A stretch of 23,673 nucleotides of DNA from a virus. The stretch spans positions 1 to 23,673 of the IMG/VR virus record IMGVR_UViG_3300030107_003845. One strand, given 5' to 3'. Shown here piece after piece: positions 2,253 through 17,875 of this stretch. Each line of letters starts with the position of its first letter. The stretch's first letter is position 1. Made by a program: the position numbers and the translations under genes. The notes below the pieces were generated by a model that was given only the letters and a program-made list of their open reading frames with translations, ran no database searches and was not told the DNA's origin.

Positions 2253-2510
2253 CTAATTTTCCTTAATTTTTTCCTTCAACCACTCCATGTCCTGAGACAT
2301 TTTAGCCACATCTACTCTAAGCTCTGTCATGTTGTCATTAAGAGTTTCTAACTGAGCCAAAGTTCTTTCCTCTAAAGTACTTACGCGCTTCTCTAGGTCG
2401 CTAACCTGTGCGTCTAGAGTGCCGTAGGATACTGCTACAGCTACAATGCAAGTAAGGATAGGAAGGAAGCTATTTAGCTTGTTGGATGGCTTGGACTCCG
2501 ATGAACTCAT
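2253..2510 (-). CDS. Membrane-anchored coiled-coil protein
   Basis: The 85-residue protein has a polar N-terminus (MSSSESKPSNKLNSF), one membrane segment (about residues 15 to 33, FLPILTCIVAVAVSYGTL), then a long heptad-rich helix (VSDLEKRVSTLEERTLAQLE and on to the end) typical of a coiled coil. Topology is probably N-in with the coiled coil outside the cytoplasm, as in inner-membrane spanins of the Rz type, but no partner o-spanin, holin or endolysin is seen nearby, so lysis is only a suggestion. An in-frame ATG at 2549 and a GTG at 2552 would lengthen the N-terminus by 13 to 14 residues inside the upstream Clp gene. I prefer the ATG at 2510, which still overlaps that gene by 41 bases. Confidence 0.7.
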   Translation of the reverse strand: MSSSESKPSNKLNSFLPILTCIVAVAVSYGTLDAQVSDLEKRVSTLEERTLAQLETLNDNMTELRVDVAKMSQDMEWLKEKIKEN

Positions 2511-3738
2511 TTTTCTTAAATAGGGGTTTGTATTTAGTAGCTGAATCATCACCTTTTAGCAATTCATCAGCAATTTTAATAGAAATATTGTTTTTAATAA
2601 ACCGTTTAATATTCCTCGCCCCATATTCTTCAGAGAATGCTTGGTCAGTGACGAAATCAACCAGTTTTTTAGTTACTCGAATCGGAAGTTCCTTGAGTTG
2701 CAAGCGAACAATCTTTTCAGCATCAACCTTATTTAGTGCGTTAAAGTAAATAACACTATCCAATCGGTTCCTAAATTCGGGAGAAAACTTATCTTTGAAC
2801 ACTTTCTTGATATCATCTTTGCTATTTTCGTATGTCATCTTCTGGTCGCCAAATCCAACGGAAGTTTTACCGACATATTCCTTCAACCCAATGTTACTTG
2901 TAAACAAAATTAAAGAGTTAGTAAAATCTAATTCAGTCCCATGGGAATCAGTTATTGTACCTTCATCCATAAGATTTAGTAACAAATCAAACAATTTAGA
3001 GTGAGCCTTTTCTATCTCATCAAAAACTATTACCCATTCATTGGACTTGTCTGCGCGTTCGGACAGAATGCCTTTCTCGTTGTGTCCGATGTAACCGGGA
3101 GGACTACCAATTAGTTTAGCATATTCATGAGAGTTGGAATACTCACCGCAGTTTATCTTTAACAACTTCTTGCGAGAGCCTAGAACTTTTTTAGCCAGAA
3201 TCTTTGCCAACTCTGTTTTGCCTACACCTGTAGGACCAATAAAAAATAAATTAGAATTATCGCACAGACCTGATTTCATCAACCTAAGTTGTTTCATAAT
3301 CTCTGTAATAGGTTGGTCTTGCCCTACAATCTCTTTCTTTATCTGTGTCTCTATACCTGAGAAGTCTGAGAAAGTAAGGGTTTTACGAGGTTTTGAGGGG
3401 CGATTGCTGACCGAACCTTTTTCATCAATGTAACTGTTGATGGTTTTGTTGAGCATTTCCAAAGAAAAACCTTGATAAATTTCTGTAACGCACTCAAACA
3501 GAGCTTCGGGAGCACCATCTTCAGTGCATTCTTTCATTACTGCGTCATACCCTATTACCAAATTACGCAAAATAAACTTCACGTACTCTGTAATAGAATA
3601 CTTGGGAGTAGTAACTGCATCTAGCATATCCAGAACGAGACGTTCTAATTCCTCCTCCCCTAATTTTTTAATGGGAATAAACCTATCCAACGTATGTGAA
3701 TAGACGATAAATTTATTTTTAAATTCTTTTCGCATCAT
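2470..3738 (-). CDS. Clp/Hsp100-type AAA+ ATPase, single ATPase domain
   Basis: The 422-residue protein is an ATP-driven unfoldase like the second ATPase domain of ClpA, ClpB and ClpC. Residues 1 to about 125 are a helical N-domain that I do not recognise. Then come Walker A GPTGVGKT (168 to 175), the pore loop SPPGYIG (212 to 218), Walker B VIVFDE (236 to 241), sensor 1 in LILFTSN, the arginine-finger segment FSPEFRNRLD (318 to 327) and sensor 2 YGAR (372 to 375). Between sensor 1 and the arginine finger is SVGFGD (293 to 298), at the place of the IGL/VGF loop with which ClpA and ClpC dock on ClpP. This suggests delivery of substrates to host ClpP, though no protease is encoded here. It starts with tandem ATGs overlapping the stop of the upstream gene (ATGA). 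Confidence 0.92.
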   Translation of the reverse strand: MMRKEFKNKFIVYSHTLDRFIPIKKLGEEELERLVLDMLDAVTTPKYSITEYVKFILRNLVIGYDAVMKECTEDGAPEALFECVTEIYQGFSLEMLNKTINSYIDEKGSVSNRPSKPRKTLTFSDFSGIETQIKKEIVGQDQPITEIMKQLRLMKSGLCDNSNLFFIGPTGVGKTELAKILAKKVLGSRKKLLKINCGEYSNSHEYAKLIGSPPGYIGHNEKGILSERADKSNEWVIVFDEIEKAHSKLFDLLLNLMDEGTITDSHGTELDFTNSLILFTSNIGLKEYVGKTSVGFGDQKMTYENSKDDIKKVFKDKFSPEFRNRLDSVIYFNALNKVDAEKIVRLQLKELPIRVTKKLVDFVTDQAFSEEYGARNIKRFIKNNISIKIADELLKGDDSATKYKPLFKKNEFIGVQAIQQAK

Positions 3739-4049
3739 TTGCTCAGGTCCTCGAATGACATAGGGTCTATAGCCTTCTTGGTTTTCATTTCTGCTTGAGT
3801 CATTTTAAGCATCAAATCCAATATTTTGACCACCTTATCATTCGCGCCTTGCGCTAAGTCTAAAGCCTTCGACATCTCTTGCTTGGCTTTATCGTCTAGA
3901 GGATTATCCGCAACCATCTCTTTGAAATAGTTAAACGCTTCTAAAGCTAATTTCCTATCCTCAACACTATCTCGGACAACATCCTTAGCCATCTTCTGAA
4001 CTCTTTGTTCAGAGAAATAGCTGGTTTTGGGAGTGTAAATTTTAGGCAT
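3735..4049 (-). CDS. Small helical protein of unknown function
   Basis: The 104-residue product is not recognised. After a short basic start (MPKIYTPKTSYFSEQRVQKM) it is almost wholly alpha-helical and charged, with an amphipathic stretch through ALDLAQGANDKVVKILDLML. No signal peptide, membrane segment or metal motif is seen. Its ATG overlaps the TAA of the upstream basic protein by one base (TAATG) and its TGA overlaps the Clp ATPase start, so it is coupled to both. A role as an adaptor or substrate-selector for the adjacent AAA+ ATPase is one guess from the neighbourhood. A small packaging or structural protein is equally possible. Confidence 0.75.
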   Translation of the reverse strand: MPKIYTPKTSYFSEQRVQKMAKDVVRDSVEDRKLALEAFNYFKEMVADNPLDDKAKQEMSKALDLAQGANDKVVKILDLMLKMTQAEMKTKKAIDPMSFEDLSK

Positions 4050-4432
4050 TAATCTAATGGGGTTTTGCGCTTCTCTAAATTTTTATACTTTTTAGTCGCG
4101 TACCCAGCTTTTGCCTTACCTTTAGAGGTGGCGGGCATTTTAGCCGGACCATGCTTAACATTAGTTCGTTTAGAATAAGCTTTAATAACATTGATATCGG
4201 TACCTCCGGGGAATCCTTTAACAACTTTGTTTTTTGATTTTTCCCCCCAAGTACCACGGGTAATAACATAAATCCGGTCTGAAGCGGGAGTGGTGAAATA
4301 ATGACCATACCCATGCTTCGCTAAAGCGTCGCCGATTGAAGAGTGTACGGGTACACGGGCTTTTTTACCTGTGTCTAGCTGACCTCTCTTGGTCGGTTTA
4401 ACTTCTTTATTGCCTGATTTTGCTTTTGCCAT
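4049..4432 (-). CDS. Lysine-rich basic protein of unknown function
   Basis: The 127-residue product is strongly basic, with lysine runs at both ends and a more ordinary centre (HSSIGDALAKHGYGHYFTTP, then DRIYVITRGTWG). The composition suggests nucleic-acid binding or internal packing in the head, but no known fold is recognised. The ATG at 4432 has a good ribosome site (GAGG nine bases upstream, in the short gap from 4433 to 4452). The stop overlaps the next start (TAATG). There are no membrane or export signals. Confidence 0.75.
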   Translation of the reverse strand: MAKAKSGNKEVKPTKRGQLDTGKKARVPVHSSIGDALAKHGYGHYFTTPASDRIYVITRGTWGEKSKNKVVKGFPGGTDINVIKAYSKRTNVKHGPAKMPATSKGKAKAGYATKKYKNLEKRKTPLD

Positions 4433-4896: not shown

Positions 4897-5333
4897 TATT
4901 TATTCTCCGGTAACCACCAATCTTTTCCGACGAAATCAAAAGCTCCTGCACGTTCCTCGTCAGGATTCTTAGGGTCATATTTTTTGGTTACAAGATATAA
5001 TAGTCCGCATGGCTCATTTCCTACCGCAGTTAATCCGTGCCATTCTCCCGCCTGCACATGAATTACAGCCGGGTTGTGCTCTCCAATAAAGAATTTCTCC
5101 GCACCCCACTCATCAGACCAGATACCTACCTGTGCCATACCTGTCAATATGCAGAAGTAATCGTCCTGATGTTTATGTCGATGCCAAGCCTTAACGACCC
5201 CCGGATAAAGAATAGAATAGTTTATTTGATAATCTAAAGCTTTGTGGGGTTCTATATTTACACAATCATAAATATCATTTAAACTCCATCCTCTAGAGTC
5301 GGCAAACTTAGGTAATTGTATTATTCTACTCAT
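4896..5333 (-). CDS. RmlC-like sugar-nucleotide cupin (dTDP-4-dehydrorhamnose 3,5-epimerase family)
   Basis: RmlC epimerises dTDP-4-keto-6-deoxyglucose at C3 and C5 on the way to dTDP-L-rhamnose. This 145-residue cupin has the family landmarks: DSRGW near the start, YPGVVKAWHRHKHQDDYFCI with the conserved histidine and Tyr-Phe, GEHNPAVIHVQAGEWHG, and a C-terminal NPDEER. It is shorter than classical RmlC (about 180) and resembles the compact RmlC-like group, so 3,5-epimerase activity is likely but not certain; 3,4-ketoisomerases of the FdtA type are a related alternative. It is separated from rmlA-B-D and coupled to recA (ATGA at 5333). If active, it would supply the step missing between RmlB and RmlD in the window. 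Confidence 0.82.
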   Translation of the reverse strand: MSRIIQLPKFADSRGWSLNDIYDCVNIEPHKALDYQINYSILYPGVVKAWHRHKHQDDYFCILTGMAQVGIWSDEWGAEKFFIGEHNPAVIHVQAGEWHGLTAVGNEPCGLLYLVTKKYDPKNPDEERAGAFDFVGKDWWLPENK

Positions 5334-6301
5334 TGTAATTCTCCTTTCTCTATCATAGTAGAAAGGGTCTTAGTTAGGTCAGCGGCTCGGGATTTATTTA
5401 CCCCGTCAAGAGAATACCATCCTTTTGAGGGAGACGTTACTACACCATTCTTGTAGGCTGACATGGTTAACCCAAAGTCTCTGGACAAGCCCTCATTATA
5501 CATAAGTTTGAACTCACAATCTTGATACGGCACCGTTACTTTGTTCTTTACACACTTGATAGTCCCTTTAATTCCTGTTGGGTTTTTCATATCATCGTAA
5601 AGAATGTCATTTTTTCCTGACGCAGTTTCTAAGGATACCGCGCAATAATAAAGAAGTGCTTTACCGCCCCCTGCTTTGGTTCGTGGGTCTCCAAACACCA
5701 AACCAACTTTACTACGAACCTGATTGATAATTATCAATGACGCTTTGTGCTTACGTAGTAAAGGGTTAATGCGACGCAAACATTGTCCTGCAACTTTTGC
5801 TCTCAAAGCTCCGGCAATCTCACTATTATTACCAAGGTCTCCTTCCATCTCTTTACGAGTTGGTGAGACGCCAATAGAATCGTATCCAATAACAATAGGA
5901 GTATCTTTATCTTTTTCCCTGATTGCAAGAATCGCTTTCTCGATAGTATCGAAACAATCTTCCATTGTTTCAGGCATTGTGTAAATCAGTTTCTCGGAAT
6001 CAACTCCAAGAATCTGAGCGAACGACGGGGAATACGCGTGTTCATTATCTACCATAACAGTGTAGTAACCTTGCTCCTGTGCGCCTTTAAAAGCGTGTGT
6101 CAGAAACACAGTTTTAGCTGTCGAAGATTCGCCGTAAATCTCTGTAATACCTCCGATGGGAAACCCACCGTTGTAATCGCCAGAGATGATTTTGTTAAGG
6201 GCATACGAACCCGAGTCTACAAATCCAAAGACTTGTCCTTCTTCAGAAAGAAGGTTAGCTCCGTCGAGCCTTTTACAAATGTCATCTAAAATATTAGCCA
6301 T
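5330..6301 (-). CDS. recA: RecA-like strand-exchange recombinase
   Basis: The 323-residue protein is a RecA-type ATPase, the phage counterpart of UvsX, which pairs homologous strands in recombination-dependent replication and repair. The Walker A region reads GESSTAKT (57 to 64) instead of GPESSGKT, with Ala in place of the usual Gly before Lys. VDNEHAYSPSFAQILGVD (84 onward) carries the catalytic Glu. Walker B is PIVIGYD. Loop L1 is EMEGDLGNNSEIAGALRAKV, and loop L2 is INQVRSKVGLVFGDPRTKAG, both close to bacterial RecA rather than T4 UvsX. The C-terminal domain of bacterial RecA is short here. The gene follows a 44-base gap with a TATAAT-like element three bases from its ATG. Its stop overlaps the RmlC-like gene. 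Confidence 0.93.
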   Translation of the reverse strand: MANILDDICKRLDGANLLSEEGQVFGFVDSGSYALNKIISGDYNGGFPIGGITEIYGESSTAKTVFLTHAFKGAQEQGYYTVMVDNEHAYSPSFAQILGVDSEKLIYTMPETMEDCFDTIEKAILAIREKDKDTPIVIGYDSIGVSPTRKEMEGDLGNNSEIAGALRAKVAGQCLRRINPLLRKHKASLIIINQVRSKVGLVFGDPRTKAGGGKALLYYCAVSLETASGKNDILYDDMKNPTGIKGTIKCVKNKVTVPYQDCEFKLMYNEGLSRDFGLTMSAYKNGVVTSPSKGWYSLDGVNKSRAADLTKTLSTMIEKGELQ

Positions 6302-6481: not shown

Positions 6482-6700
6482 TTATATAGTACCACTTGTT
6501 GAGCGTGGGGATTTTTTCTTCGGCGGTTTCTTATACGTCTTCTTAGGGAGAGTAGGTTCCGGAACAGGAATACCTACAGGGGTTAAAGGGGGTTTACTTA
6601 ATATTCCCGCTAAATGTATTACCTCTCCCGGTGCTACGCGTAGCAACTCTCCAACGTCAATAAAAACGTCCGTATGCGTATCGTTACGAAATTTCCCCAT
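6482..6700 (-). CDS. Small protein with Pro/Lys-rich tail, function unknown
   Basis: The 72-residue product has a compact first half (MGKFRNDTHTDVFIDVGELL, then RVAPGEVIHLAG) that looks like a small beta-rich domain. The second half is disordered and rich in proline and lysine (VPEPTLPKKTYKKPPKKK). Similar short domains occur in phage accessory proteins, but I cannot name a family. GGAG lies about eight bases before the ATG. The gene overlaps the end of the GDP-mannose epimerase gene by 17 bases and stops just before the next small basic gene. Confidence 0.65.
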   Translation of the reverse strand: MGKFRNDTHTDVFIDVGELLRVAPGEVIHLAGILSKPPLTPVGIPVPEPTLPKKTYKKPPKKKSPRSTSGTI

Positions 6701-7649
6701 TAATCCACTCCAAAGTTTTTTCCATACCTTGTCTCAGAGAGTATTTAGGCTTCCAACCAATCTCTTTTTCTATAAGAGCATTATCAGAACAACGTCCCAT
6801 AACGCCTACAGGACCATCAACGTTCTGAATGGTGAGGTCTCTCCCACTAATCTCAATCGCCATTTGTGCAAGCCCGTTAATAGAAATCATTTCCTCCGAA
6901 CCTATGTTTACGATAGCGTCCGAATCAGAATCCATGAACGTACGAATAGCGTCTACACAATCATCAATATACAAGAATGAACGGGTTTGAGTTCCAGGAC
7001 CCCATACCTCCATAATTTCGGCTGATAGCAGGGCTTTACGGCACATGGCGGCGGGGGCTTTTTCTTTTCCCCCATCGAAAGAACCATGCGGTCCAAAAAT
7101 ATTATGGAAACGAGCTACCTTTACTGGAATCTTATAGTTGCGTTGGTACGCTTTATAAAGCCTCTCAGAGAAAAGTTTCTCCCATCCGTACTCGGAATCG
7201 GGGTCGGCAGGGTAAGCAGAATCTTCTACACAGTTTGGGTTCTCAGGCTCTAGTTGATTACGTGCCGGATAAATACAGGCAGAAGAAGAATAAAAGACTT
7301 TAATAGTTTCTTCCATCTTTGCTAATTGGTTTAACAAACGTAAATTAATCAAACCAGAATTGGTCATTACATTAGCATCATTCTCCCCGGTAAAAATATA
7401 ACCGGCTCCTCCCATATCTGCTGCGAGTTGATAAACTTCGTCCATTTTATCCACCACCTGAAAAATAGAGTCGCAGGTCAAATCATAATTCTCAAAAACC
7501 TCATAATCCATATGGGTAGGGATTTGCCACCATTCTTCTTTAGGTTTAATATCCACACCACGAACATGGTACCCCTCATCAAGGAGTCGTTTAACAAGAT
7601 GACCTCCAATGAAGCCTCCTGCACCAAATACTACTGCTTTTTTATTCAT
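6684..7649 (-). CDS. GDP-mannose 3,5-epimerase
   Basis: This extended SDR enzyme (321 residues) epimerises GDP-D-mannose at C3 and C5 to GDP-L-galactose (and GDP-L-gulose) using bound NAD. It has the NAD loop GAGGFIGG (9 to 16), AADMGGAGYIF, then SSSACIYP with the catalytic cysteine (Cys125). The catalytic YGWEK has Tyr154 and Lys158. ARFHNIFGPHGSFDGGKEKA and QTRSFLYIDDC follow. These blocks are characteristic of the GME family rather than of UDP-galactose epimerases. No gmd or fcl (GDP-fucose) gene is present, so GDP-L-galactose is the likely product, and the nearby GT11-type transferases are candidate users. GDP-mannose must come from the host. The start lies within the end of the NAD synthetase gene. 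Confidence 0.92.
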   Translation of the reverse strand: MNKKAVVFGAGGFIGGHLVKRLLDEGYHVRGVDIKPKEEWWQIPTHMDYEVFENYDLTCDSIFQVVDKMDEVYQLAADMGGAGYIFTGENDANVMTNSGLINLRLLNQLAKMEETIKVFYSSSACIYPARNQLEPENPNCVEDSAYPADPDSEYGWEKLFSERLYKAYQRNYKIPVKVARFHNIFGPHGSFDGGKEKAPAAMCRKALLSAEIMEVWGPGTQTRSFLYIDDCVDAIRTFMDSDSDAIVNIGSEEMISINGLAQMAIEISGRDLTIQNVDGPVGVMGRCSDNALIEKEIGWKPKYSLRQGMEKTLEWINGEIS

Positions 7650-8409
7650 TTATTTTACAAACCGGTATCGGTATCATCTTATGATAGTTCTGATTATGAA
7701 GATTTGAATATATATCTAACACTTTCTTTTGACGGGGAGTAAGACGTACGAGACCTTTGACCGCCTTGTCCTCACACCACTTCATCGCCCACTCTAACTC
7801 GTCGTACGTCGCTCCCAATTGGTCTTCATCGTTACGACTATCTCCCCACAGTCCGTCAGTGGGGGGAACATCCTGAATCTCTTGGGGGACACCAAGCTTC
7901 TTAGCCAGTTCGTAAACCTGGGATTTCATCAGGTCAGCGATAGGGGAGATATCTACACCTCCATCACCATACTTAGTAAAAAACCCGACGCCGAAATCTT
8001 CTACTTTATTTCCTGTTCCGGCTACAAGTAACTTGAGGTCACCCGCCACTGCATAAAGCGTGGTCATCCTCAAACGAGCTCTTGTATTAGCTAAACCCAG
8101 TTCGTTAGTACAAACCGACTCTTCGAAAGAGTCGTACACGTTAGTTAAATCTATACAATCTCCTATTACGTTAGAAAAATTATCTTCTAACCATTTTATT
8201 TGAAGCTCTGATAGACTGTGTAAAGCAGGGTCTTGATGTATGGGCATTGTCAGAACCCTAACTTTGAGTCCTGTCAATGCGCAAAGAGTAGAGGTAACAG
8301 CGGAATCAATTCCTCCCGATATCCCTACTACGAAACCGTCCATATTATTAGACTCGGCATACTCTTTAAGCCAATTAACTATTTTTTCTTTGTAAACCAT
8401 GCGTTCCAT
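7642..8409 (-). CDS. nadE: NH3-dependent NAD+ synthetase
   Basis: NadE adenylates nicotinic-acid adenine dinucleotide and amidates it to NAD+. The 255-residue protein has the PP-loop GISGGIDSAVT (29 to 39), NTRARLRMTTLY, and GTGNKVEDFGVGFFTKYGDG (131 to 150), followed by GVDISPIADLMKSQVYELAK and PPTDGLW, all standard for bacterial NadE. There is no glutaminase domain, so it uses ammonia. A second ATG at 8400 is an alternative start. It sits inside the glycan cluster, just before the NAD-using GDP-mannose epimerase. It may maintain NAD+ for host and phage enzymes or restore it after NAD-depleting defence; both are inference. No other NAD-salvage gene is in the window. Confidence 0.95.
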   Translation of the reverse strand: MERMVYKEKIVNWLKEYAESNNMDGFVVGISGGIDSAVTSTLCALTGLKVRVLTMPIHQDPALHSLSELQIKWLEDNFSNVIGDCIDLTNVYDSFEESVCTNELGLANTRARLRMTTLYAVAGDLKLLVAGTGNKVEDFGVGFFTKYGDGGVDISPIADLMKSQVYELAKKLGVPQEIQDVPPTDGLWGDSRNDEDQLGATYDELEWAMKWCEDKAVKGLVRLTPRQKKVLDIYSNLHNQNYHKMIPIPVCKINE

Positions 8410-9005
8410 CCATCGTTTTTTACTTGTACCATATAAGGCTCTAATAATTCACAAACCTTATCATGGTGAGAGGCATTATCATACTGTCCAGCCGTAGAGC
8501 TTTCTATTTGTAATAATTCTAGCCTAGACATGTATTTACCTAAACTAGCCACCACTTCATCTTCAAATCCTTGAGTATCTGATTTCATCCGAAATACTCC
8601 GTTATTTACACGCTCCCAAGGCACTTGGTCTAAGATAGTTTCCAAGGCAACTACGGGAACGTCTTTGGTTTCTAACACTTCGTACCCATCATTTTCAAAC
8701 AACTCGCTGGGTTTATGAAAGCTTGAAGTTCCTTGGTCAGTTATATCCCCATCTGATTGCGCAATAATATTAAAAGCCATTGTTTCCTTTGTAGAGTTAG
8801 CTACCCCAGCCTCAATCAAATGAAACCTTTCACCTAATTCAAGGGCTCTAACTCTCTCGCAGGAATTGGGGTTAGGTTCAATACCTATAACAAAACTTGT
8901 GGGGTTATGTGTTAAAAACTCAGCGGACGTGGGGGCATTATGAGAGAGTCCCACGTCAATAAACAAATCAAACTCCCCCGCAGGAAAATTAATCTCGTAT
9001 TTCAT
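8379..9005 (-). CDS. FkbM-family SAM-dependent methyltransferase
   Basis: The 208-residue protein fits the FkbM class, which O-methylates sugars and other hydroxyl groups. Near the start FDLFIDVGLSHNA is motif I (the SAM-binding Asp-x-Gly is shifted to D-V-G-L), then VIGIEPNP gives the acidic end of strand 2. Later MKSDTQGFEDEVV is the hallmark second block of FkbM proteins. A sugar target, capping or decorating the glycan made by neighbouring transferases, is likely from context. Two in-frame ATGs exist (9023 and 9005). The one at 9005 has GGAGAG ten bases upstream and puts the core domain at a usual distance, so it is chosen. The gene overlaps its neighbours at both ends. Confidence 0.85.
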   Translation of the reverse strand: MKYEINFPAGEFDLFIDVGLSHNAPTSAEFLTHNPTSFVIGIEPNPNSCERVRALELGERFHLIEAGVANSTKETMAFNIIAQSDGDITDQGTSSFHKPSELFENDGYEVLETKDVPVVALETILDQVPWERVNNGVFRMKSDTQGFEDEVVASLGKYMSRLELLQIESSTAGQYDNASHHDKVCELLEPYMVQVKNDGWNAWFTKKK

Positions 9006-10095
9006 AAGTGAACAACTCTCCATAAAGTTCTTTTACTTGGTCTACAACCTCTTGACGTTCTTTGATAGTTACCTGAGCCCCACCTCGTGCCACTCTAACT
9101 GCGTACGCAAGTTGTTGTGATTCCTCAATCATAGTGGACTGAGGTTTATATGTAACACAATCAAATACATAAGTTTTGTCTGAAGCTCTACTAACCATAT
9201 AATCTAAATGTTTGTCGTTACACGCGTCAGTCGCATCGCTTATATCTATCGGACAGTTCTTTTCTTTAGCGTAGATACCTAACGCTCTATTATCTCTAGG
9301 GAAACATGGTCCCCCATAACCAAAACCATACATAGTACATTTAGACCCGACACGCGTGTCAGCCCCAATAGCGTCTAAAATCTTTTGGGGTTCTGCTCCA
9401 ACTTCCGTAGCTAAATCCCCTATCATGTTAGTGAACGCTATTTTGGTAGTAATAAAACAGTTAAGAGATATCTTACAAATCTCTGCGCTTAAGGGGCTCA
9501 TAATAGCGTAGTGAGGATTTCCTCCTGCGAGGTGGTGATGAATTTGTTTAATCTCATCAGCGCAATCTTCGTCAGGAGCCCCGATTAAAACCATATCGGG
9601 CTGTAGTTGGTCGCGGATGATTGTTCCTTGAGCTATAAACTCAGGGTTATAAGAAACTTTATAATTATAAGACTCTAAATCTTTTTGTAGCTCTTGACAG
9701 AACCCAGGCATAACCGTGCATCCAATAATCAAATGCTTAGTGTCAGCTTGTCTGCCATAACCTTTCAACTCTTCCACGACGTTAAGAACTTGTGAATGGT
9801 CATACTTACCATTATCTAACGAAGGCGTAGCTACTAAAACAAAAATAGTGTTGGAATACTCTAGCCCTTCTAATAAATTGGTAGTAGCGCTGAAATTGGT
9901 ATCCTCCTGAAGAAGTTCGGTTACGTGCTCTTCGGAAGATACAAAAGTTTTGTTGTTTAAAGAGTTAACATATTCTTCAGATACGTCTACTCCCTTTACC
10001 TTGTACCCTGACCGCGCTAAATTAAGAGCCCAGCATAGCCCTAGCTTACCTACTCCTAAAACAGTTACTTTGGATTTAAAAGTTTCCTTCATCAT
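8989..10095 (-). CDS. ugd: UDP-glucose 6-dehydrogenase-type nucleotide-sugar dehydrogenase
   Basis: These enzymes oxidise C6 of a nucleotide sugar to the uronic acid with two NAD+. The 368-residue protein has the Rossmann loop VLGVGKLGL (about 13 to 20), VATPS, YNPEFIAQGT, CKISLNCFITTKIAF with the active-site Lys208 and Asn212, and the catalytic cysteine in YGGPCFPRD (Cys264). The CFPxD form matches UDP-glucose or GDP-mannose dehydrogenases rather than the GGHCxPxDP form of UDP-ManNAc dehydrogenases. It is shorter than usual (390 to 430), and the C-terminal UDP-binding domain is reduced: the usual Arg after the TYKP segment is not evident in TMIEES. A CTATAATAG element lies three bases before the tandem ATGs. 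Confidence 0.9.
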   Translation of the reverse strand: MMKETFKSKVTVLGVGKLGLCWALNLARSGYKVKGVDVSEEYVNSLNNKTFVSSEEHVTELLQEDTNFSATTNLLEGLEYSNTIFVLVATPSLDNGKYDHSQVLNVVEELKGYGRQADTKHLIIGCTVMPGFCQELQKDLESYNYKVSYNPEFIAQGTIIRDQLQPDMVLIGAPDEDCADEIKQIHHHLAGGNPHYAIMSPLSAEICKISLNCFITTKIAFTNMIGDLATEVGAEPQKILDAIGADTRVGSKCTMYGFGYGGPCFPRDNRALGIYAKEKNCPIDISDATDACNDKHLDYMVSRASDKTYVFDCVTYKPQSTMIEESQQLAYAVRVARGGAQVTIKERQEVVDQVKELYGELFTYEIRD

Positions 10096-10831
10096 CCACT
10101 ATTATAGTATCAGGATACCAAGAATGGAAAAAATTATTTTTAGCAAAAACCTTTTTATTTTGTCCGTATAAGTGCGCACACCAACTCAATGAACTATTTG
10201 ATGTCAGTAGTAAATCCGCAACTGTAAGATGGTAAAGAGTTCTTACTATATCATCATTCAAATGCAGAGTAGCATTATACTTTTCGGTTAATAATGAAAA
10301 CTCTTCTTCTTCCCCTTGGGAAAAAATATGAACCTCAGAATTATCCGTTATAACCTTCTCTAACAAAGAATCAAAATACTTTTCTTTGGGGGAACCTTTA
10401 CTATAATATTCTCGGTTTGGGTTATGGCAATTATCTTGAGAGTTCAATGCTCTGATGTGAAGAGCGATACTCTCCTTACCTTCGGTAAAGTACATCTTGT
10501 CATCGTAAGTAACATACTTAAAAAATTCTTTTATGTGAGGTTGCTTGTCGGCATTGTTTATCTCTCCCCACATCTTCAATAAAAACCCTTCATCGACCGT
10601 ACCTTGTTCTTTGTTAGATTCTAGGGGCGATACTCCTACAAACTTATTAATACGCTCACAAAACTCCTCTTGAGTTTGGTCAGTGTACTGATAATGTGAT
10701 AGATTACAAAACCCGGGAAACGCAAAATCATAATTATTTAATTTGCAAAACGCATATAGGTGTTGTTGTATTTGTAACAAAGAACCTAGTCCTGCTGAGT
10801 TTTGCCCGTCATATGTAGATGTTACTTGCAT
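10076..10831 (-). CDS. Fucosyltransferase-like GT-B glycosyltransferase (divergent)
   Basis: The 251-residue protein follows directly after a GT11 gene and shares its outline. An N-terminal glycine loop with a helix (GLGSLLQIQQHLYAFCKLNN, from about residue 14) takes the place of GxLGNQLFQ. SIALHIRALN (121 to 130) corresponds to the HxRRGD donor-binding block but lacks the second Arg and the Gly-Asp. LTSNSSLSWCAHLYG (209 to 223) matches the S-N-S-S-x-S-W block of GT11 enzymes. It is probably a second transferase for L-fucose or L-galactose, diverged from GT11, or a NodZ/FUT8-like relative. The start overlaps the GT11 gene by 10 bases. Confidence 0.7.
   Translation of the reverse strand: MQVTSTYDGQNSAGLGSLLQIQQHLYAFCKLNNYDFAFPGFCNLSHYQYTDQTQEEFCERINKFVGVSPLESNKEQGTVDEGFLLKMWGEINNADKQPHIKEFFKYVTYDDKMYFTEGKESIALHIRALNSQDNCHNPNREYYSKGSPKEKYFDSLLEKVITDNSEVHIFSQGEEEEFSLLTEKYNATLHLNDDIVRTLYHLTVADLLLTSNSSLSWCAHLYGQNKKVFAKNNFFHSWYPDTIIVDDEGNF
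10100..10107 (-). promoter_or_regulatory. CTATAATA start-proximal element, ugd
   Basis: On the minus strand CTATAATAG is followed by TGG and the tandem ATGATG that starts ugd. The element lies within the last codons of the preceding transferase gene (Thr-Ile-Ile-Val), so coding constraint could also explain it. Confidence 0.3.
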
Positions 10832-11670
10832 AATACTTCAAAATCTGTATGGTATAACCCTTCTCTTTTTTCGTGAGTATCGGTAGAGGTAGGGTCATAA
10901 ATAGCGGGAGCTATAACTCGCTTTCCTTTTTCTACATTTAAATAGCCCGCGAACAATCCAAAACTACTGGCTTGTCCTAAAATAGAATGGTCGCAGGAAA
11001 GGATGCGAGAAAAATCTTCCATCGTGTTACCGTTGGAATAGTGCGCGTCTATACCTAAATTATCCCTGCACCATTGAACGTCCTCTGAGTTATCATCTCC
11101 TTCCCGAGACCCACCTGTGAAGACTAAAAACTGACAGTCTTCGAATTGTTTTACTGCCTCCTTTAAATATTTAAAGTAGTAGCCGTCGCTATCATACATA
11201 CCCATCATCTCAGGGTTAGTACCGTCCGTATTATCTCCTCTTCGTACATGCACACTGACGGTGGTTTTATTACCGAACTGTTTCATATAACTATTTGCAT
11301 CGTCTAAAAAAGAGACATGGGGGGTAAGCTCTTTAAAAATTTGGTCTTTATAATCTTCGAAGTATTTTAAACTTTGAAAAAACCCTGAGATAGCTGTACC
11401 GTCAGGCTGTTCAAAAAAAGAAGCGTCTACTTTAGTATGGTCGGGCTCTCTATAAACATTAGTTATAGACCCCATATCATCTTCGGTAATCATCGTAGCC
11501 GATAGATTAAAATTATAAAGTTGGCAGTTTTGTCCATGCCATGCCATTCGTAAGAGGTCGGGTATTTTAGCCTCATATCCGTGCTTAAGGCTTAATCCTC
11601 TTAGCGCGGCATATTGGAACAACTGATTGCCCAAGCGACCATCGAACCCTAATCGAGGATAACAAATCAT
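10822..11670 (-). CDS. GT11-family alpha-1,2-fucosyltransferase-like enzyme
   Basis: GT11 enzymes transfer L-fucose (or possibly L-galactose, its 6-hydroxy analogue) from the GDP-sugar to galactose and related residues. The 282-residue protein opens with GRLGNQLFQYAALRGLSLKH (11 to 30). It has TVSVHVRRGDN, with HVRRGD at 141 to 146 as the GDP-binding block, and ends with SILGQASSFGLFAGYL (229 to 244), the third conserved block. Length is typical. GDP-fucose synthesis genes are absent from the window, while a GDP-mannose 3,5-epimerase is encoded about 4 kb downstream. The ATG overlaps the DegT stop (ATGA). Confidence 0.9.
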   Translation of the reverse strand: MICYPRLGFDGRLGNQLFQYAALRGLSLKHGYEAKIPDLLRMAWHGQNCQLYNFNLSATMITEDDMGSITNVYREPDHTKVDASFFEQPDGTAISGFFQSLKYFEDYKDQIFKELTPHVSFLDDANSYMKQFGNKTTVSVHVRRGDNTDGTNPEMMGMYDSDGYYFKYLKEAVKQFEDCQFLVFTGGSREGDDNSEDVQWCRDNLGIDAHYSNGNTMEDFSRILSCDHSILGQASSFGLFAGYLNVEKGKRVIAPAIYDPTSTDTHEKREGLYHTDFEVLCK

Positions 11671-12287
11671 AACGACTCACACCCTTTAAAAACTGGTAGT
11701 TTACTTAAATCCCGGTACCCATTATTTTCTCCAAGGTCAGGCATATTCTCCGGGTAATTTTGCATTAAAGCGAGACCGTGAGATGCTTGTTGTGGAGTCA
11801 TATACATATTCCATCCAAGCATTTCAATTTCATCCTCGTGGTAATTTTTCTCACTGCGCCCTTCATAGCGAGCTTTCTTAAGCCATTCCACCATGACAGG
11901 ATTGTCGGTCAAAATCATACCCCCTTTACCTATGGATAGCGTCTTCTTAATATGAAACGATAAGCACATAGAACTTCCCGGTTTGTACATATTAGAGGTT
12001 AAACGTTTAGCAGAATCCCAGATAGGATAAGGTTTGAGTTGGTATGCACCACTCCAATCACGGTCATCAAAAAGCACACGTCCGCCTGCGTGTATGACTG
12101 ACATGGGAACGGATAGGTAAGTATGTTTAGGTACTTGAACTTGGTCCACCTCCCAATACTTACAACACAAAAATAACGCGTTAGTGCAACTATCAACAGC
12201 TACAGCGAAAGGCGCTCCTGTGTATTGAGCGATTTCTTCTTCGAACATCTTAACGATGTTGTACGGATTATGTTTTATCTGTTTCAT
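11667..12287 (-). CDS. Miniature DegT/DnrJ/EryC1-family aminotransferase
   Basis: DegT-family enzymes use PLP to aminate keto-sugar nucleotides. At 206 residues this is only slightly more than half the usual 370 to 400, yet the active-site landmarks remain: YTGAPFAVAVDSCTNALFL, the PLP-contacting Asp in PIWDSAKRL, and the Schiff-base lysine segment SFHIKKTLSIGKGGMILTD. GWNMYMTPQQASHGL then matches the family's G-x-N-x-R-M-x-x-x-Q-A region, and the protein ends soon after. The loop between the second and third blocks is shortened and the C-terminal small domain is missing. The ATG at 12287 overlaps the acetyltransferase stop (ATGA). A TTG 24 bases upstream is less likely. It could be a working minimal enzyme or a binding protein derived from one. 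Confidence 0.8.
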   Translation of the reverse strand: MKQIKHNPYNIVKMFEEEIAQYTGAPFAVAVDSCTNALFLCCKYWEVDQVQVPKHTYLSVPMSVIHAGGRVLFDDRDWSGAYQLKPYPIWDSAKRLTSNMYKPGSSMCLSFHIKKTLSIGKGGMILTDNPVMVEWLKKARYEGRSEKNYHEDEIEMLGWNMYMTPQQASHGLALMQNYPENMPDLGENNGYRDLSKLPVFKGCESL

Positions 12288-12652
12288 ATTAAATCGTATG
12301 GAACTTGGCAAGCCTCAAAGATACGACGACTTGCCATATTCTCCTCCTTGATGCGTCCACGACAATCAGGAAAAATAGAACGAATTTCACTCAACATGAA
12401 CTTTCCTATCCCATTACCGTGAAAGCTAGAATCTGTGCACACACGTATATCATTATCAATAACGCCTATGTATCCAACAGGTTCCCCATATAATAGACAT
12501 ATGTAATAGCAATCAGAATATTTTTTCATATATTCTTTTTGTTGTTGAGGAGTTATGTTAGCCTCTTCTAAAAACCCATTTGTGTTTTTAGGGTCTGTCC
12601 TCAACTCTCGTACAAACTCATAATACTGCGAGGTAATAGGAATTAACTCCAT
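12284..12652 (-). CDS. GNAT-family N-acetyltransferase, short
   Basis: The 122-residue product fits a GNAT acyltransferase. CYYICLLYGEPVGYIGVID forms the central strands, and FHGNGIGKFML (about 77 to 87) is the acetyl-CoA pyrophosphate-binding turn (Q/R-x-x-G-x-G/A). GRIKEENMASRRIFEACQVP is the usual C-terminal strand and helix with the N-x-x-S/A-x-x-x-F/Y pattern. It is near the lower size limit for the fold. Immediate coupling to a DegT-type aminotransferase, as in amino-sugar N-acetylation pathways, suggests that it acetylates an amino-deoxy sugar nucleotide, but a peptide or glycan target is not excluded. The ATG is inside the end of the upstream GT-D-like gene. Confidence 0.82.
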   Translation of the reverse strand: MELIPITSQYYEFVRELRTDPKNTNGFLEEANITPQQQKEYMKKYSDCYYICLLYGEPVGYIGVIDNDIRVCTDSSFHGNGIGKFMLSEIRSIFPDCRGRIKEENMASRRIFEACQVPYDLI

Positions 12653-13446
12653 GTATCTATTTGAGTTCCATATTTATTATGCATACCTAACACCCAATGC
12701 TGAAGGTAAGCGCGGGAATACCTCCACCCTTCTAATCCCATCCAAGGATTTAAAGAACTTCCTATATCAATGTAGGTATTTTGAGGGTGTTCGAAGAAAC
12801 AATCTTTAATAATAAAATTAGAGAGAGTGGACGCCGCTACTAAAAAGACGGTATCGCTGATATTCTCTTGAGCTACCCATTTATTTATTTTAGTAGAAAT
12901 ATCGAAGTCGTTAACAATACAGTTCGACCCTATAGAAAATGTTTTTATAATATTATTAAAACTTAGTTGGTCGAGGTTAGCATTTTCATTAACAACAAAC
13001 ACAACTTTTTTATCTCTCAACATAGGAACAATCTCGTTTATAAACCTAGGATAATTTCCATTAATAAAAAGATTGGCGAAGGTTTGGTGAGTTTCGTCTC
13101 CTTCACAAATGTTTTGTTGGTATAACAAAATATTATCGTCCTTACACACATCATTATCTTCGTTCGTAGCCAATGCTTTAAAATAATTTGGGCGAGAGGC
13201 TTTTAAACACTCATGTAATTTCTCTATTACATGTGGATGTTCGTCAGGGTCAACATTCTTCCCTTCTTCACTTGGGTAACGACCACTTCCTACATCATCT
13301 CCACAAATGAATCCTGTGTCATGAAGAACTACCTTCATACTTTTTAGTAAGTTTATCTCCCCATCAGAAAAACGGGAATAAGCAAACGGCTCTCCTTTTT
13401 CAAGAAGCTGTTTAAATTTATCGAATTCAGCGTCGTAGTATTTCAT
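12643..13446 (-). CDS. GT-D-fold-like glycosyltransferase (DUF1792-related)
   Basis: The 267-residue protein begins MKYYDAEFDKFKQLLEKGEP and then FAYSRFSDGEINLLKS. The segment S-R-F-S-D-G-E (24 to 30) matches the SRFGDGE signature of the DUF1792 glycosyltransferases, whose Asp-x-Glu motif binds metal in the GT-D fold. Further on are KVVFVVNENANLDQLSF, TVFLVAASTLSNFIIKD, and a C-terminal YIDIGSSLNPWMGLEGWRYSR. In this family that part reads as strand-turn-Asp-x-Gly and may touch the donor. Overall identity to studied members appears low, so the family call is moderate. A TTG 33 bases upstream is in frame, but the ATG at 13446 is preferred. It lies between wecB and the acetyltransferase, overlapping both. 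Confidence 0.65.
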   Translation of the reverse strand: MKYYDAEFDKFKQLLEKGEPFAYSRFSDGEINLLKSMKVVLHDTGFICGDDVGSGRYPSEEGKNVDPDEHPHVIEKLHECLKASRPNYFKALATNEDNDVCKDDNILLYQQNICEGDETHQTFANLFINGNYPRFINEIVPMLRDKKVVFVVNENANLDQLSFNNIIKTFSIGSNCIVNDFDISTKINKWVAQENISDTVFLVAASTLSNFIIKDCFFEHPQNTYIDIGSSLNPWMGLEGWRYSRAYLQHWVLGMHNKYGTQIDTWS

Positions 13447-14404
13447 CAGCAATTTTTTTCGCGGAATCTCCACTTCCAAAAGGGCATTCCTCTGTTATTA
13501 TAGTCTCTATATGAGAAGAAAATTTATTAATAAGATTGTTAGGGTTTAAGCACATTACACTAGACGCGCAGGCTCGTTCAGTAACTTCTCTACACACAAA
13601 ACATATCTTCTTAAAAAAACTACATTCTTCTTGAATCCCTCCACTATCGGTGATAACAGCTTTGCAATTCGCAATTCGATGTTTCATTTCATCAAAAGGA
13701 ATTGGGTCACACACTTTAACATTCGAGAAACAACCTTTATGTTTCTGAACGTTGGGGTTAGGGTGCATGGGGAATATAAATTTGTATTGAGTAAACTCTG
13801 TTGCGAGCTTCTCTATCGCCTCACACCACTCTCTCATCTGGTCGTGGTTTTCCCTACGGTGAAGCGTAACCAAAATTTCGTCTGACGTGCTTGTAGGTAT
13901 ACCCACAAGATTGTCGATACATGTATTACCTGTAACTACAATCTTATCTTTCCACCAACCTTCTTTGTGTAAGTTTGCTGCATCTCCTATGCGCGGACAG
14001 TAATGTTCATCCGCCAAAGAACTTATAATCCGTCTATTTATTTCTTCAGGAAAAGGATTTCTCGCATCATGTGTTCTTAATCCAGCCTCTAAATGAATAA
14101 CTTTTATTCCTTTGTTAAAAGCAGTTAACGCAACAGCCATACCTGCTGTAGTATCGCCCTGCACCACGACGGAAGATATATCTTCAGGTAGGGGGGTTTC
14201 TAGAACAGAGACTATAATATCATTTAACCTGTTCTCAGTAAACCCCTTGATATTAATTTTATAATCATAATCACATCCTTCAATTAAAGAATCATGCTGT
14301 CCCACTTGTATTAATTTAAAAGGGTGTGCGCGGTGGTCTAACTCATCAATAAGAGGGAGGAGTTTTATATATTCGGGACGGGTTCCATAAAAAATTCCTA
14401 TCAT
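13427..14404 (-). CDS. wecB: UDP-N-acetylglucosamine 2-epimerase
   Basis: WecB interconverts UDP-GlcNAc and UDP-ManNAc, the precursor of ManNAc and ManNAcA residues. The 325-residue GT-B-fold protein has FYGTRPEYIKLLPLI at the start, VVQGDTTAGMAVAL, HLEAGLRT, NPFPEEINRRIISSLAD, TGNTCIDNL, VTLHRRENH, FPMHPNPNVQ and ITDSGGIQEE. These include the Asp, two Glu, Arg and His needed for catalysis in E. coli WecB. It is about 40 residues shorter than usual, mostly between blocks. A hydrolysing (NeuC-type) epimerase cannot be excluded. The ATG overlaps the preceding transferase stop (ATGA). The dehydrogenase in this cluster is of the UDP-glucose type, so conversion on to ManNAcA is not shown. Confidence 0.93.
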   Translation of the reverse strand: MIGIFYGTRPEYIKLLPLIDELDHRAHPFKLIQVGQHDSLIEGCDYDYKINIKGFTENRLNDIIVSVLETPLPEDISSVVVQGDTTAGMAVALTAFNKGIKVIHLEAGLRTHDARNPFPEEINRRIISSLADEHYCPRIGDAANLHKEGWWKDKIVVTGNTCIDNLVGIPTSTSDEILVTLHRRENHDQMREWCEAIEKLATEFTQYKFIFPMHPNPNVQKHKGCFSNVKVCDPIPFDEMKHRIANCKAVITDSGGIQEECSFFKKICFVCREVTERACASSVMCLNPNNLINKFSSHIETIITEECPFGSGDSAKKIADEILRR

Positions 14405-15147
14405 AGCTCTATAGGGTTAATTGTTTCCCATCCTCCACATAAAGCTTCATGAATCAATTCATCCCGTTGTGCGTAAAACATAGGGATAGGTATAAACCGT
14501 CCCATAGAAGATGCTTTACTATCACCTCCATACTTATTAGCTTTTAAGGAGCTATGTAACCGAGGATTGTCCTTAGGGTGGGGAGGGCAGTAACAGTTTA
14601 AACCTCCGTACTTCTGAGCAAGGTACGCTAACTGTATATCTTCTCCGTTCTCTAAACTCATGGGTTTTTCCGACCACATGTACTTAAGATTTTGGGTTTC
14701 TAAAAACCAAGCGTGTCCCAACAAATCTACCCTTTCAATATCCTCGTTGTTACTCGGCCAACCTTCACGACGATGTTGGTGATAATGTTTTCCCTCCATA
14801 ATACAACCTACTCCTCCGTATAAGCCCGGAGTTTTTTGTATTGAACTAACACAATTCTCCAACCACATATCGCCGGGAATAGTATCGTCATCAAACAAAG
14901 CAACATACTTCGTCGGAGCCATCAAACCCACAGCAAAGCGAGCATGAAACTTACAGTTTACGCTAGACCTAAAAACTCTATCAAATCCAAACCTATTCAC
15001 TTTAAATTTTTTATTCTCGTCTGCATGATTAATCCATAACCATATTTGAGACGGCTGAACAGTCTGAGCTCTGATTGCCTCAAGCTGTTCTTCTAAATAG
15101 TTCGGTCTTTTAAAAAGATTTAGAATTACAGTAATATCATTTTCCAA
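14401..15147 (-). CDS. GT-A (family 2-like) glycosyltransferase
   Basis: The 248-residue protein has a GT-A nucleotide-sugar-binding domain: DITVILNLFKRPNYLEEQLE at the start, the strand YVALFDDDTIPGDMW (81 to 95) with the DDD metal-binding motif, and a C-terminal acceptor side with ENGEDIQLAYLAQKYGG, resembling the E-D/E-D motif of family 2. Substrate is unknown. The start is TTG at 15147; there is no in-frame ATG before the conserved first strand, and GGAGGA lies eight bases upstream of the TTG, the best ribosome site in the cluster. It overlaps the upstream gene by 11 bases and the wecB start by 4. Confidence 0.88.
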   Translation of the reverse strand: MENDITVILNLFKRPNYLEEQLEAIRAQTVQPSQIWLWINHADENKKFKVNRFGFDRVFRSSVNCKFHARFAVGLMAPTKYVALFDDDTIPGDMWLENCVSSIQKTPGLYGGVGCIMEGKHYHQHRREGWPSNNEDIERVDLLGHAWFLETQNLKYMWSEKPMSLENGEDIQLAYLAQKYGGLNCYCPPHPKDNPRLHSSLKANKYGGDSKASSMGRFIPIPMFYAQRDELIHEALCGGWETINPIEL

Positions 15148-15928
15148 AGAGAATATCCTCCCAAGCGTTTAATACCTGAGTGTTTGTCCAAATCTCTGCT
15201 CCCGACTCGGCGGATTCTAGCCCGTCATAAGGAGTATTAGTTTTTTCACACTCAGCTTTAATAAAGTTAAAAGTTTCGCTCGCAGAAGAATGGTATACTT
15301 TAGAAAGAGAGTCGTACATTGCTTGTTTATTGTCAACGTGCCCCATCATATTAACGCCGTGTTTTTCTACAAGTGGTTTTACCTTTTCATTATAGTAAGC
15401 TTCGTCAGTCACCTGACCAAAAAGATTAATGGTTTCGAACCCATCTTCTACAGCCCTTTCTATGGAAAGGTGAGTTTGTTTATTGGAGTCGATACTTCCT
15501 ATTATGCCCGCAACTCCTATCATAAATTCTCTTTTAGGGTGAAGGTCGGACACAACATTAGGAATAACCTTTCCACCTACTCCCTGCCAAAACATTTGAG
15601 TATTAGAAACATAGACAACCTCGTCCCAGAACTTAGGAGTATCTTTTATAGGAAAAACGTTCTTCTCATGGCACGATAAAATAACGCGGTTCGATGCTTC
15701 AGGGCGAGAAGGGAATTTTAAATAATGTACAATAATGTTTTCATCTTTTTCGTTCACCGGACATTCATCTAAATAACCCGATTTACATTGGCGCGTATGC
15801 CATTCATGAGGACCATAAAATGTACAATCATACCCTCGTTCATTAAATAAATTACAAAGGTTTATAAAGGCAACGGTAGAGCCTCCCGGCGCAGACCAAC
15901 CACTAAGAATTTTTATTTTTTTTGACAT
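15137..15928 (-). CDS. GT-B (GT4-like) glycosyltransferase, compact
   Basis: The 263-residue protein has a GT-B outline. KIKILSGWSAPGGSTVAFIN begins the N-terminal domain with the donor-side glycine loop. VVYVSNTQMFW and GKVIPNVVSD lead into the C-terminal domain, which opens with MIGVAGIIGSIDSNKQTHLS, the typical strand and lysine of GT4 enzymes. NLFGQVTDEAYYNEKVKPLV follows, then VYHSSASETFNFIKAECEKT in the place of the E-x7-E donor-binding loop (the second Glu falls in KAECEK). It is about 100 residues shorter than typical GT4 proteins. Donor and acceptor are unknown. It overlaps the genes on both sides. Confidence 0.8.
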   Translation of the reverse strand: MSKKIKILSGWSAPGGSTVAFINLCNLFNERGYDCTFYGPHEWHTRQCKSGYLDECPVNEKDENIIVHYLKFPSRPEASNRVILSCHEKNVFPIKDTPKFWDEVVYVSNTQMFWQGVGGKVIPNVVSDLHPKREFMIGVAGIIGSIDSNKQTHLSIERAVEDGFETINLFGQVTDEAYYNEKVKPLVEKHGVNMMGHVDNKQAMYDSLSKVYHSSASETFNFIKAECEKTNTPYDGLESAESGAEIWTNTQVLNAWEDILFGK

Positions 15929-16682
15929 AATCTAATATAATAGTATCTTCAACTTCATTATCTTGTTGAAACACATCGTCTAGTTTCCTACCTATTCCAG
16001 TAGTATAGCGAAATTGAGGATGCCTCGACGGAACATCTGCGCGTCCTCTTGTAAGTTTGCGTTGGTATTCTTCTTTAGACTTCACCCAATAATGATTTAT
16101 ACGTAATGTATCTGCAGTAGCGGGTTCATTAAAAGGTCCTCCACAAGGTTGTTTGTTTTCATTAACGGCAGTTCCTTGAGTATAAATAAAGGAGTGAGGG
16201 TTAAAGGCTGAACACAAAGTAAGCTCGGGTTGGCAAATAGATTTAATATGTTTGTCTACCTCTTGTCGTCGTTTAATGTAATTGTGCAGAACACCTCCCG
16301 CCGGTCTAGTTTCATTTCCATTCGAGCCGAAAAACACTTCGTTAACCGCTATACCTGGAAACTGTTCATAATCTTTTAACTGTTCTTTCAAATCGCCTTT
16401 GGGTGAAAACAAAAATTCATCCAAATCAATAAACGCCATCCATTTAGATTGGTCACGAAAAGCAGTTAAAGCGTTAAAATAACACGCCATTTGGCACATA
16501 TCCATGGTGTTGTACGAGTAGCTTACATTAGCATAGCTATCACATATAGACTTGGTACCATCAGTACTACCATTATCATAAAGATAAAAATGGTCTACCC
16601 CAACACCTTTATGAAAATCTAACCACTCCCTCAGATTAGGAGCTTCATCTTTCATAACTGCAACTACGCTTAAATAATTCAC
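15903..16682 (-). CDS. Glycosyltransferase of the GT2_4/GT92-like (DUF23-related) type
   Basis: The 259-residue protein begins VVAVMKDEAPNLREWLDFHK and YLYDNGSTDGT (34 to 44), the nucleotide-binding start of this GT-A subgroup. WMAFIDLDEFLF (81 to 92) has the D-x-D metal motif. KHIKSICQPE and NHYWVKSKEEYQRKLTRGRA near the C-terminus are also typical, with His-Tyr in the acceptor or metal site. Many such transferases add hexoses to surface glycans; the donor here is unknown. The start is GTG at 16682, overlapping the TGA of the upstream gene (GTGA). The next in-frame ATG falls inside the conserved first strand, so GTG is the real start. Confidence 0.9.
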   Translation of the reverse strand: MNYLSVVAVMKDEAPNLREWLDFHKGVGVDHFYLYDNGSTDGTKSICDSYANVSYSYNTMDMCQMACYFNALTAFRDQSKWMAFIDLDEFLFSPKGDLKEQLKDYEQFPGIAVNEVFFGSNGNETRPAGGVLHNYIKRRQEVDKHIKSICQPELTLCSAFNPHSFIYTQGTAVNENKQPCGGPFNEPATADTLRINHYWVKSKEEYQRKLTRGRADVPSRHPQFRYTTGIGRKLDDVFQQDNEVEDTIILDYVKKNKNS

Positions 16683-17875
16683 GCAGATGCCCCCATCTGT
16701 GCTTGCGCTTTCACGTTCATGAGGTCTCTATACAAATCCAAACGACCTCCCACGACCTTGTTGATGTCATACAAATCATCACATAACAGTTTCAAATTCC
16801 TGCCCATCTCTGCGACATGCTGAGGGTCTTTAATACATTTAGTTAGAACTCTCATCCATTCCTTCTTTGGGTTGGACGGGTCAATAAGATATCCAGTCTC
16901 ACCATTAACGATTAACTCATCATAACAGCCAACGTTGGTAGCAACAAGAGGAACCCCGTAACGAGCCCCTTCGATAGCTTTAATCTCTGATTTTGAATCA
17001 TTGAAGTTATTACTGTCAAGTATAGCCAAGTTTACATCAATTTGAGTATACATCTGACCGTAGGTGTTAGGAGGCATCGCCGGATATATGTGGTAGTTTC
17101 TATGCCCTTTAAAACCCCGGGATAAAATACGTTCGTATCCTTTCCATACATCGGATTGCCAATCTTCCTGACCGGGAGCTTGGATGGGTCGTCCGTAAAA
17201 CCCCCAATGTACTCTCTCTTTTCCAACTTTCTGATTCACCAAGAATGGGATGCCAGCAAAATGTTTAACATCAACATCATGATGAATACCGCCTACCCAT
17301 CCCATACGGGTCAACTTCTTAGGTTTATTAACGCGAGGAAGATTCCAGCATGGTAAGTTATAGTCTATAGTATTTTTAATCACCACTAACGCACAGGTAA
17401 CGAAGGGAGCAATCCTTTCAGCAAACTTGCGCTGTGTAACTGATACTAAATCCACGTTAGAATAGATGTACTCGGTTACTTTATTGAGTTTTTGCTCATG
17501 ATACACGTCAGATAATCTATGACCTTCGTATAAATCCGTCAATAAATCATCTGTATCAAAGTGAGTAAACTTACCTAGTTCATGAGCTTTGCGTAAAATC
17601 TCTACAGTGTAAGGACCTCCAAAATTATGAATGTTCTGAGTAAACACAACATCCGCCCACTTCATGTTTTCAAACTCAAAGTCGGGTGGGGTGTGTTGAC
17701 CGGGCTTACCATCTTGAGGGGGAATCCACCCTAAAGGGTTATCGTCAAATCTAACCTCTACCTCGTCACCATAATGTTCCTGTAGTTTCTCCATAGGAAG
17801 GAGGATGCGGTAGTACGCGCATCCTCCATGGTTACTTGGGCAAGCTAGAATCTTTAGCTTTTTCTTTTCACTCAT
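16679..17875 (-). CDS. GT-B glycosyltransferase of the GT4/group 1 type
   Basis: This 398-residue protein is a full-length GT-B transferase. It begins KKLKILACPSNHGGCAYYRI, has a middle with FDTDDLLTDLYEGHR and VSVTQRKFAERIAPF, then WVGGIHHDVDVKHFA at the domain junction. The C-terminal donor-binding region is NDSKSEIKAIEGARYGVPLV, followed by NGETGYLIDP (324 to 333), which carries the E-x7-E pattern. It is first in the glycan cluster and directly follows the gp32-like gene with no gap (TAAATG). This suggests read-through transcription from the replication genes into the glycan genes. Donor sugar unknown. Confidence 0.92.
   Translation of the reverse strand: MSEKKKLKILACPSNHGGCAYYRILLPMEKLQEHYGDEVEVRFDDNPLGWIPPQDGKPGQHTPPDFEFENMKWADVVFTQNIHNFGGPYTVEILRKAHELGKFTHFDTDDLLTDLYEGHRLSDVYHEQKLNKVTEYIYSNVDLVSVTQRKFAERIAPFVTCALVVIKNTIDYNLPCWNLPRVNKPKKLTRMGWVGGIHHDVDVKHFAGIPFLVNQKVGKERVHWGFYGRPIQAPGQEDWQSDVWKGYERILSRGFKGHRNYHIYPAMPPNTYGQMYTQIDVNLAILDSNNFNDSKSEIKAIEGARYGVPLVATNVGCYDELIVNGETGYLIDPSNPKKEWMRVLTKCIKDPQHVAEMGRNLKLLCDDLYDINKVVGGRLDLYRDLMNVKAQAQMGASA

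Follow-up and report, generated by a model that had tools for sequence, protein, structure and literature searches.

The minus-strand gene at 2470–3738 of the window (the whole stretch of DNA analysed, 23,673 nucleotides) encodes a Clp-type protein with one AAA+ module and a predicted ClpP-docking loop. We put at roughly two in three the probability that its product is a single-ring ClpC-type phage unfoldase, which would form a hexamer, dock on the host ClpP and choose its substrates with a N-terminal domain of its own. Three things were surprising: the reduced architecture, an N-domain in common with planctomycete chromosomes, and the recombinase neighbourhood. Phage interference with host proteolysis is usually discussed in terms of adaptors and inhibitors. 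If the reading is true, a phage that combines its own unfoldase ring and custom substrate-recognition domain with a borrowed peptidase would take over host protein degradation directly. With ~420 residues, a single-ring ClpC-type unfoldase would also offer a minimal setting in which to study the contributions of D1 and Clp_N, the planctomycete homologues being a cellular version for comparison.

Source genome

The IMG/VR fragment (23.7 kb), and with it the unfoldase gene, belongs to an uncultured T4-like marine phage. On the minus strand it encoded gp32, UvsX, a DnaB-like helicase, a dUTPase and a ribonucleotide reductase, the helicase and the dUTPase being recognized by reading of the sequence. 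The window had no DNA-level match in the phage record collection, and no close relatives were found by DNA among isolated phages. The large terminase of one relative was about 35% identical to the large terminases of cyanophages and other T4-like phages.

Between uvsX and gp32 (window 6684–17875) there was a long series of sugar-nucleotide and glycosyltransferase genes, with a NAD synthase gene inside it (7642–8409). A small protein at 19090–19431 had a HEICH motif and a weak likeness to M78/SprT metallopeptidases.

Unfoldase gene and AAA+ module

The gene and its recognized parts were as follows:

2470–3738, minus strand: single-AAA+ Clp-type unfoldase, 422 aa, intact ORF
3394–3738, minus strand: N-domain, residues 1–115 (AlphaFold2 model, homology to a planctomycete N-domain)
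2548–3354, minus strand: AAA+ module of the Clp D2 type, residues 129–397
3214–3237, minus strand: Walker A GPTGVGKT, residues 168–175 (G168, G171, G173, K174 and T175 invariant in 27 relatives)
3085–3096, minus strand: pore loop 1 GYIG, residues 215–218 (G215, Y216 and G218 invariant in 27 relatives)
3016–3033, minus strand: Walker B VIVFDE, residues 236–241 (D240 and E241 invariant in 27 relatives)
2851–2859, minus strand: VGF tripeptide, residues 294–296, predicted ClpP-docking loop

The adjacent second ATG is another possible start. Pfam recognized AAA_2 at residues 162–328 (1.4e-42) and ClpB_D2-small at residues 345–397 (2.9e-11). The NCBIfam matches covered only the D2 portions of ClpA, ClpB, ClpG, ClpK and ClpV, all far under the equivalog cut-offs; the ClpA model, for example, scored 242 against a cut-off of 993, and the ClpX model 26 bits against 359. 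The best solved relatives were ClpC D2 domains, both with the single protein (1e-57) and with the family profile (2e-95). The sequence-only reading had likened the ATPase domain to the second domain of ClpA/ClpC, and these searches agree, with ClpC D2 as the closest relative. There is no D1, as the AAA+ module starts after only ~128 residues, and neither a Clp_N nor a zinc-binding domain was matched in the protein. In the phage collection, no match covered 80% of the unfoldase protein.

Two IMG/VR scans retrieved some 30 full-length relatives that share this architecture, and conservation was assessed on 27 phage family members, down to 29% identity. The sensor and arginine-finger residues were invariant in this alignment, like those of the Walker motifs and of the pore loop. 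Against the four closest relatives tested, pN was 0.12–0.18 with synonymous sites near saturation, indicating purifying selection. The unfoldase gene is thus functional, and its docking motif has been maintained.

Phage Clp D2 proteins of about 340 residues, with the N-terminal extension almost absent, were found at five further loci (L050–L052, L058, L059). The loop GF was still present in those that were read.

Predicted docking loop

With HMMER, tSVGFGdq of the unfoldase was in register with yVGFNvqD of Bacillus subtilis ClpC, and its VGF also aligned onto the AGF of Staphylococcus aureus ClpC. Thermus thermophilus ClpB had no such loop in the same comparison. The S. aureus AGF docks in the H-site of ClpP, and the motif mutants G672D and F673D lose the interaction (PMC12521514); the loop occurs in ClpP partners (ClpC) and thereby sets them apart from non-partners (ClpB) (PMC10149685).

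G295 and F296 were invariant in the 27 family members; in the stretch of residues 285–317 no other column was. Without GF, this region had a mean column entropy of 2.10 bits, compared with 1.10 for the AAA+ core. The tripeptide was VGF in 13 members, LGF in six, MGF in three, IGF in two, TGF in two and AGF in one. Its first position was hydrophobic throughout the marine branch, called here branch A (V 13, L 6, M 3, I 2). In the three members of the distant branch B it was T, T and A, which speaks against docking. GF was also invariant in an 18-row set with 13 bacterial homologues. That SVGFGD sits at the position of the ClpP-binding tripeptide, as proposed from the letters alone, is borne out by the exact ClpC register and the invariant GF.

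Probable ClpP partner and proposed mechanism

The ClpP family (PF00574) had no match in 24 related phage records, with control genomes positive. Most of the records were fragments; the longest contigs included were 268, 118, 104, 102 and 102 kb. The host ClpP is therefore the likely partner, and the phage-encoded unfoldase probably borrows it. ClpP genes are known from some marine viral genomes (PMC5332604), and this, together with the fragmentary records, counts for an unfoldase docking on a phage-encoded peptidase instead. With PF00574 unmatched in related records of up to 268 kb, we consider such a peptidase extremely improbable.

Docking on the host ClpP is the best reading of the in-register invariant motif, the invariant ATPase and pore residues, the purifying selection and the lack of a phage ClpP taken together. 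The earlier idea that the protein could redirect the host ClpP gains from the intact motifs, the in-register loop and the ClpP-free records, which make the host enzyme a likely partner; the host regulators or defence proteins that it named are hypothetical substrates. We infer hexamer formation, docking on host ClpP and proteolysis, with the loop placed by alignment to ClpC. As a hexameric AAA+ ring, the protein would draw substrates through its GYIG pore, its PhiGF loops would dock into hydrophobic pockets of the host ClpP, and the ring would feed the substrates into the ClpP chamber. Substrate choice would lie with the unfoldase’s own N-domain, instead of with a Clp_N domain and D1.

The protein might also act as a decoy, filling the host ClpP pockets and so stopping host ClpXP/ClpAP proteolysis. 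The conservation of the docking motif in the absence of a known substrate would agree with this, but a decoy would not need the Walker A/B, sensor, arginine-finger and pore residues, all invariant here, and we find it very unlikely.

Comparison with known systems

By sequence, the unfoldase has the features of a ClpP-partner unfoldase: a D2-type AAA+ module, Walker A and B, sensor, arginine finger, aromatic pore loop and PhiGF loop. With ClpC it shares the D2 AAA+ module, the pore loop and the PhiGF docking loop in register, but it lacks the Clp_N domain, D1 and M-domain, has an unrelated N-domain, and is 422 residues long compared with ~815. ClpC and ClpA proper have two AAA+ modules plus Clp_N; we found one module and no Clp_N. 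ClpX is likewise a single AAA+ ring, and its IGF loop docks on ClpP; the AAA+ module of the unfoldase is, however, of the ClpC/ClpA D2 type, distantly ClpX-like, and comes without the zinc-binding domain. ClpB/Hsp104 has two rings, a long M-domain and no docking loop, whereas the phage protein has one ring and the loop.

Other phage-encoded Clp unfoldases are the ClpA homologues of PHROG 4871, from jumbo and other phages (Vibrio phage VnaP, Salicola SCTP-2, Erwinia Kaldavass, Sinorhizobium Phosso). They carry IGL, IGY, MGM, IGF or IGV at the VGF position, but have 725–778 residues with a long N-terminal half, and formed a separate group in the AAA+ tree.

DolB (Dodola) and the PADLOC candidate PDC-M37B also have one Clp-type AAA+ module after a N-terminal region of ~105 residues. 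This region did not align with that of the unfoldase, and no defence partner gene was seen. The DolB profile gave no full-length match, because only residues 98–287 were covered (E 5e-24); in planctomycetes it also matches ordinary Clp-like ORFs. As the match was limited to the AAA+ module, we rejected a defence system (Dodola/PDC-M37B) as an identity for the unfoldase.

N-domain and planctomycete homologues

The AlphaFold2 model of the N-domain consisted of a beta hairpin and five helices (mean pLDDT 85.9). Searches of Pfam, PHROG and PDB gave no sequence match worth the name, and the predicted fold had no relative among solved structures. A fold search of BFVD gave weak matches to viral proteins, often annotated as tail assembly chaperones. 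With all of them at E 0.04 or worse, this is a weak hint at most, and we discarded a known phage structural domain as the identity of the N-domain. Using phmmer, unfoldase residues 28–397 aligned on ClpA 348–724. A remnant of the small subdomain of ClpA D1, suggested by this alignment, was rejected, the predicted N-domain being without a PDB fold match to ClpA.

Proteins of ~450 residues from Planctomycetota contigs matched the phage unfoldase from near the N-terminus to residue ~397. The phage and planctomycete N-domains alone, compared by hhalign, gave a probability of 97% (E 3e-11), and 22 planctomycete-type and four branch-B N-domains all outscored every shuffled control. Judged by these comparisons, the N-domain is homologous between the phage and Planctomycetota proteins, and is not phage-specific. 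The sequence-only reading had called it novel; it is so with respect to Pfam, PHROG and PDB, but it is no phage invention.

The planctomycete proteins are single-AAA+ Clp-type ATPases for which we found no family name. They share with the unfoldase the N-domain, in all homologues examined fused to the same AAA+ module, and a PhiGF-type loop, which usually reads IGF, LGF or MGF and in one case AGF. The N-domain was found in 28 of 119 sampled Planctomycetota genomes, one copy each, one match being weak. ClpP was encoded in all four homologue-bearing genomes tested. The chromosomal copies include L094–L099, L103, L107, L114, L117, L137, L164 and L166. Other differences from the phage genes lie in the neighbours: a divergent Ser/Thr-kinase-like gene was present in 16 of the 20 loci examined, and an asparaginyl-tRNA-synthetase-like gene beside some homologues (both named from sequence), with no adjacent recA or, by profile, helical gene in these 20 loci. 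Planctomycete sequences and those of the marine phages fell into separate groups of the AAA+ tree (support 97 and 98). Branch B was nearer to ordinary Clp proteins, a placement that long branches may affect. Among the open-licence literature we found no papers describing the architecture of the phage unfoldase.

Three branch-B loci (L060, L061, L063) had the N-domain and the AAA+ module, fused in relatives, on two overlapping ORFs, for example 7505–7954 and 7893–8987 in L060. This would reflect gene fission or a frameshift.

Recombinase neighbourhood and helical gene

The genes flanking the unfoldase were as follows:

5330–6301, minus strand: UvsX/RecA recombinase, conserved neighbour in branches A and B
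4049–4432, minus strand: conserved ~130-aa gene without a Pfam match, its position and order preserved across branch-A loci
3735–4049, minus strand: small helical gene, 104 aa, adaptor or small-terminase-like candidate
2253–2510, minus strand: small protein with an apparent membrane helix and coiled coil, with similar small genes downstream in relatives

With the exception of L040, every branch-A locus with enough flank had uvsX upstream of the unfoldase. Most marine-branch loci had uvsX followed by a small membrane gene, the ~130-aa gene, the helical gene and the unfoldase, in that order. A divergent recA was the neighbour of the unfoldase gene in all branch-B loci with enough upstream sequence. 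The large terminase lay within about 10 kb in this branch and in other lineages, in some of the latter at a distance of a few kilobases. The presence of two recombinase types beside one unfoldase family is suggestive of a shared pathway, and the recombinase and replication neighbours suggest a role in DNA metabolism or in early-infection takeover.

The recombinase neighbourhood kept in two distant branches, the terminase nearby and the many, if weak, tail assembly chaperone names (E 0.04 or worse) would fit a ClpP-independent remodelling chaperone for phage complexes (recombinase filaments, replisomes, virion parts), ClpP docking being secondary. ClpX acting on MuA and the single-ring CLPB/Skd3 are parallels. 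A pure chaperone, however, needs no PhiGF loop, and ClpB has none, whereas in this family the loop varies everywhere except at GF. We therefore consider this chaperone unlikely, and prefer docking on the host ClpP. A broader proposal, which we regard as doubtful, is that the N-domain defines a distinct class of single-ring ClpP-partner unfoldases common to planctomycete chromosomes and tailed phages, whose phage members, tied to recombinase genes, would reprogramme the host ClpP so that recombination/replication complexes are degraded or remodelled.

The helical gene overlapped the unfoldase gene by four bases (ATGA). All 28 branch-A loci, some of them near-copies of each other, had it directly upstream, mostly overlapping the unfoldase start; a profile search beside the branch-B and planctomycete genes found nothing. 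Coupling to the unfoldase, as first described, thus stands, while the proposed adaptor role loses ground through this absence and through a fold that best, if non-significantly, resembles a small terminase. The AlphaFold2 model was a long helical hairpin (pLDDT 80), whose best natural Foldseek match in PDB was the small terminase of phage T6 (E 0.23, probability 0.99, TM 0.61/0.67). One homologue matched PHROG 1595 at E 0.056. A search of the rest of ten long records gave no gp16-family match, and no small terS-like gene on the same strand was evident beside terL in four loci. The fold match and the lack of a small terminase gene elsewhere in these records and loci would suit a small-terminase-like packaging protein travelling with the unfoldase, rather than a Clp adaptor. 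Against it are the non-significant hhalign comparison of the helical family with six gp16 sequences (probability 0.35%, P 0.17), the many things that match helical hairpins, and the tight coupling to the unfoldase gene. We hold a packaging protein for a tentative option, short of even odds.

A contig binned in a GTDB genome of Altibacter, a Flavobacteriaceae (L093, NZTP01000040.1), also had the helical gene upstream. Its phage-type uvsX-helical-clp order rules out a bacterial copy, and it is therefore a branch-A phage contig binned with the Altibacter genome, which is either contamination or a weak hint of the host.

The ~130-aa protein (4049–4432), whose place next to the helical gene is conserved in the marine branch, carried the motif DRIYVITxGTWGEKS...KVVKGFP.
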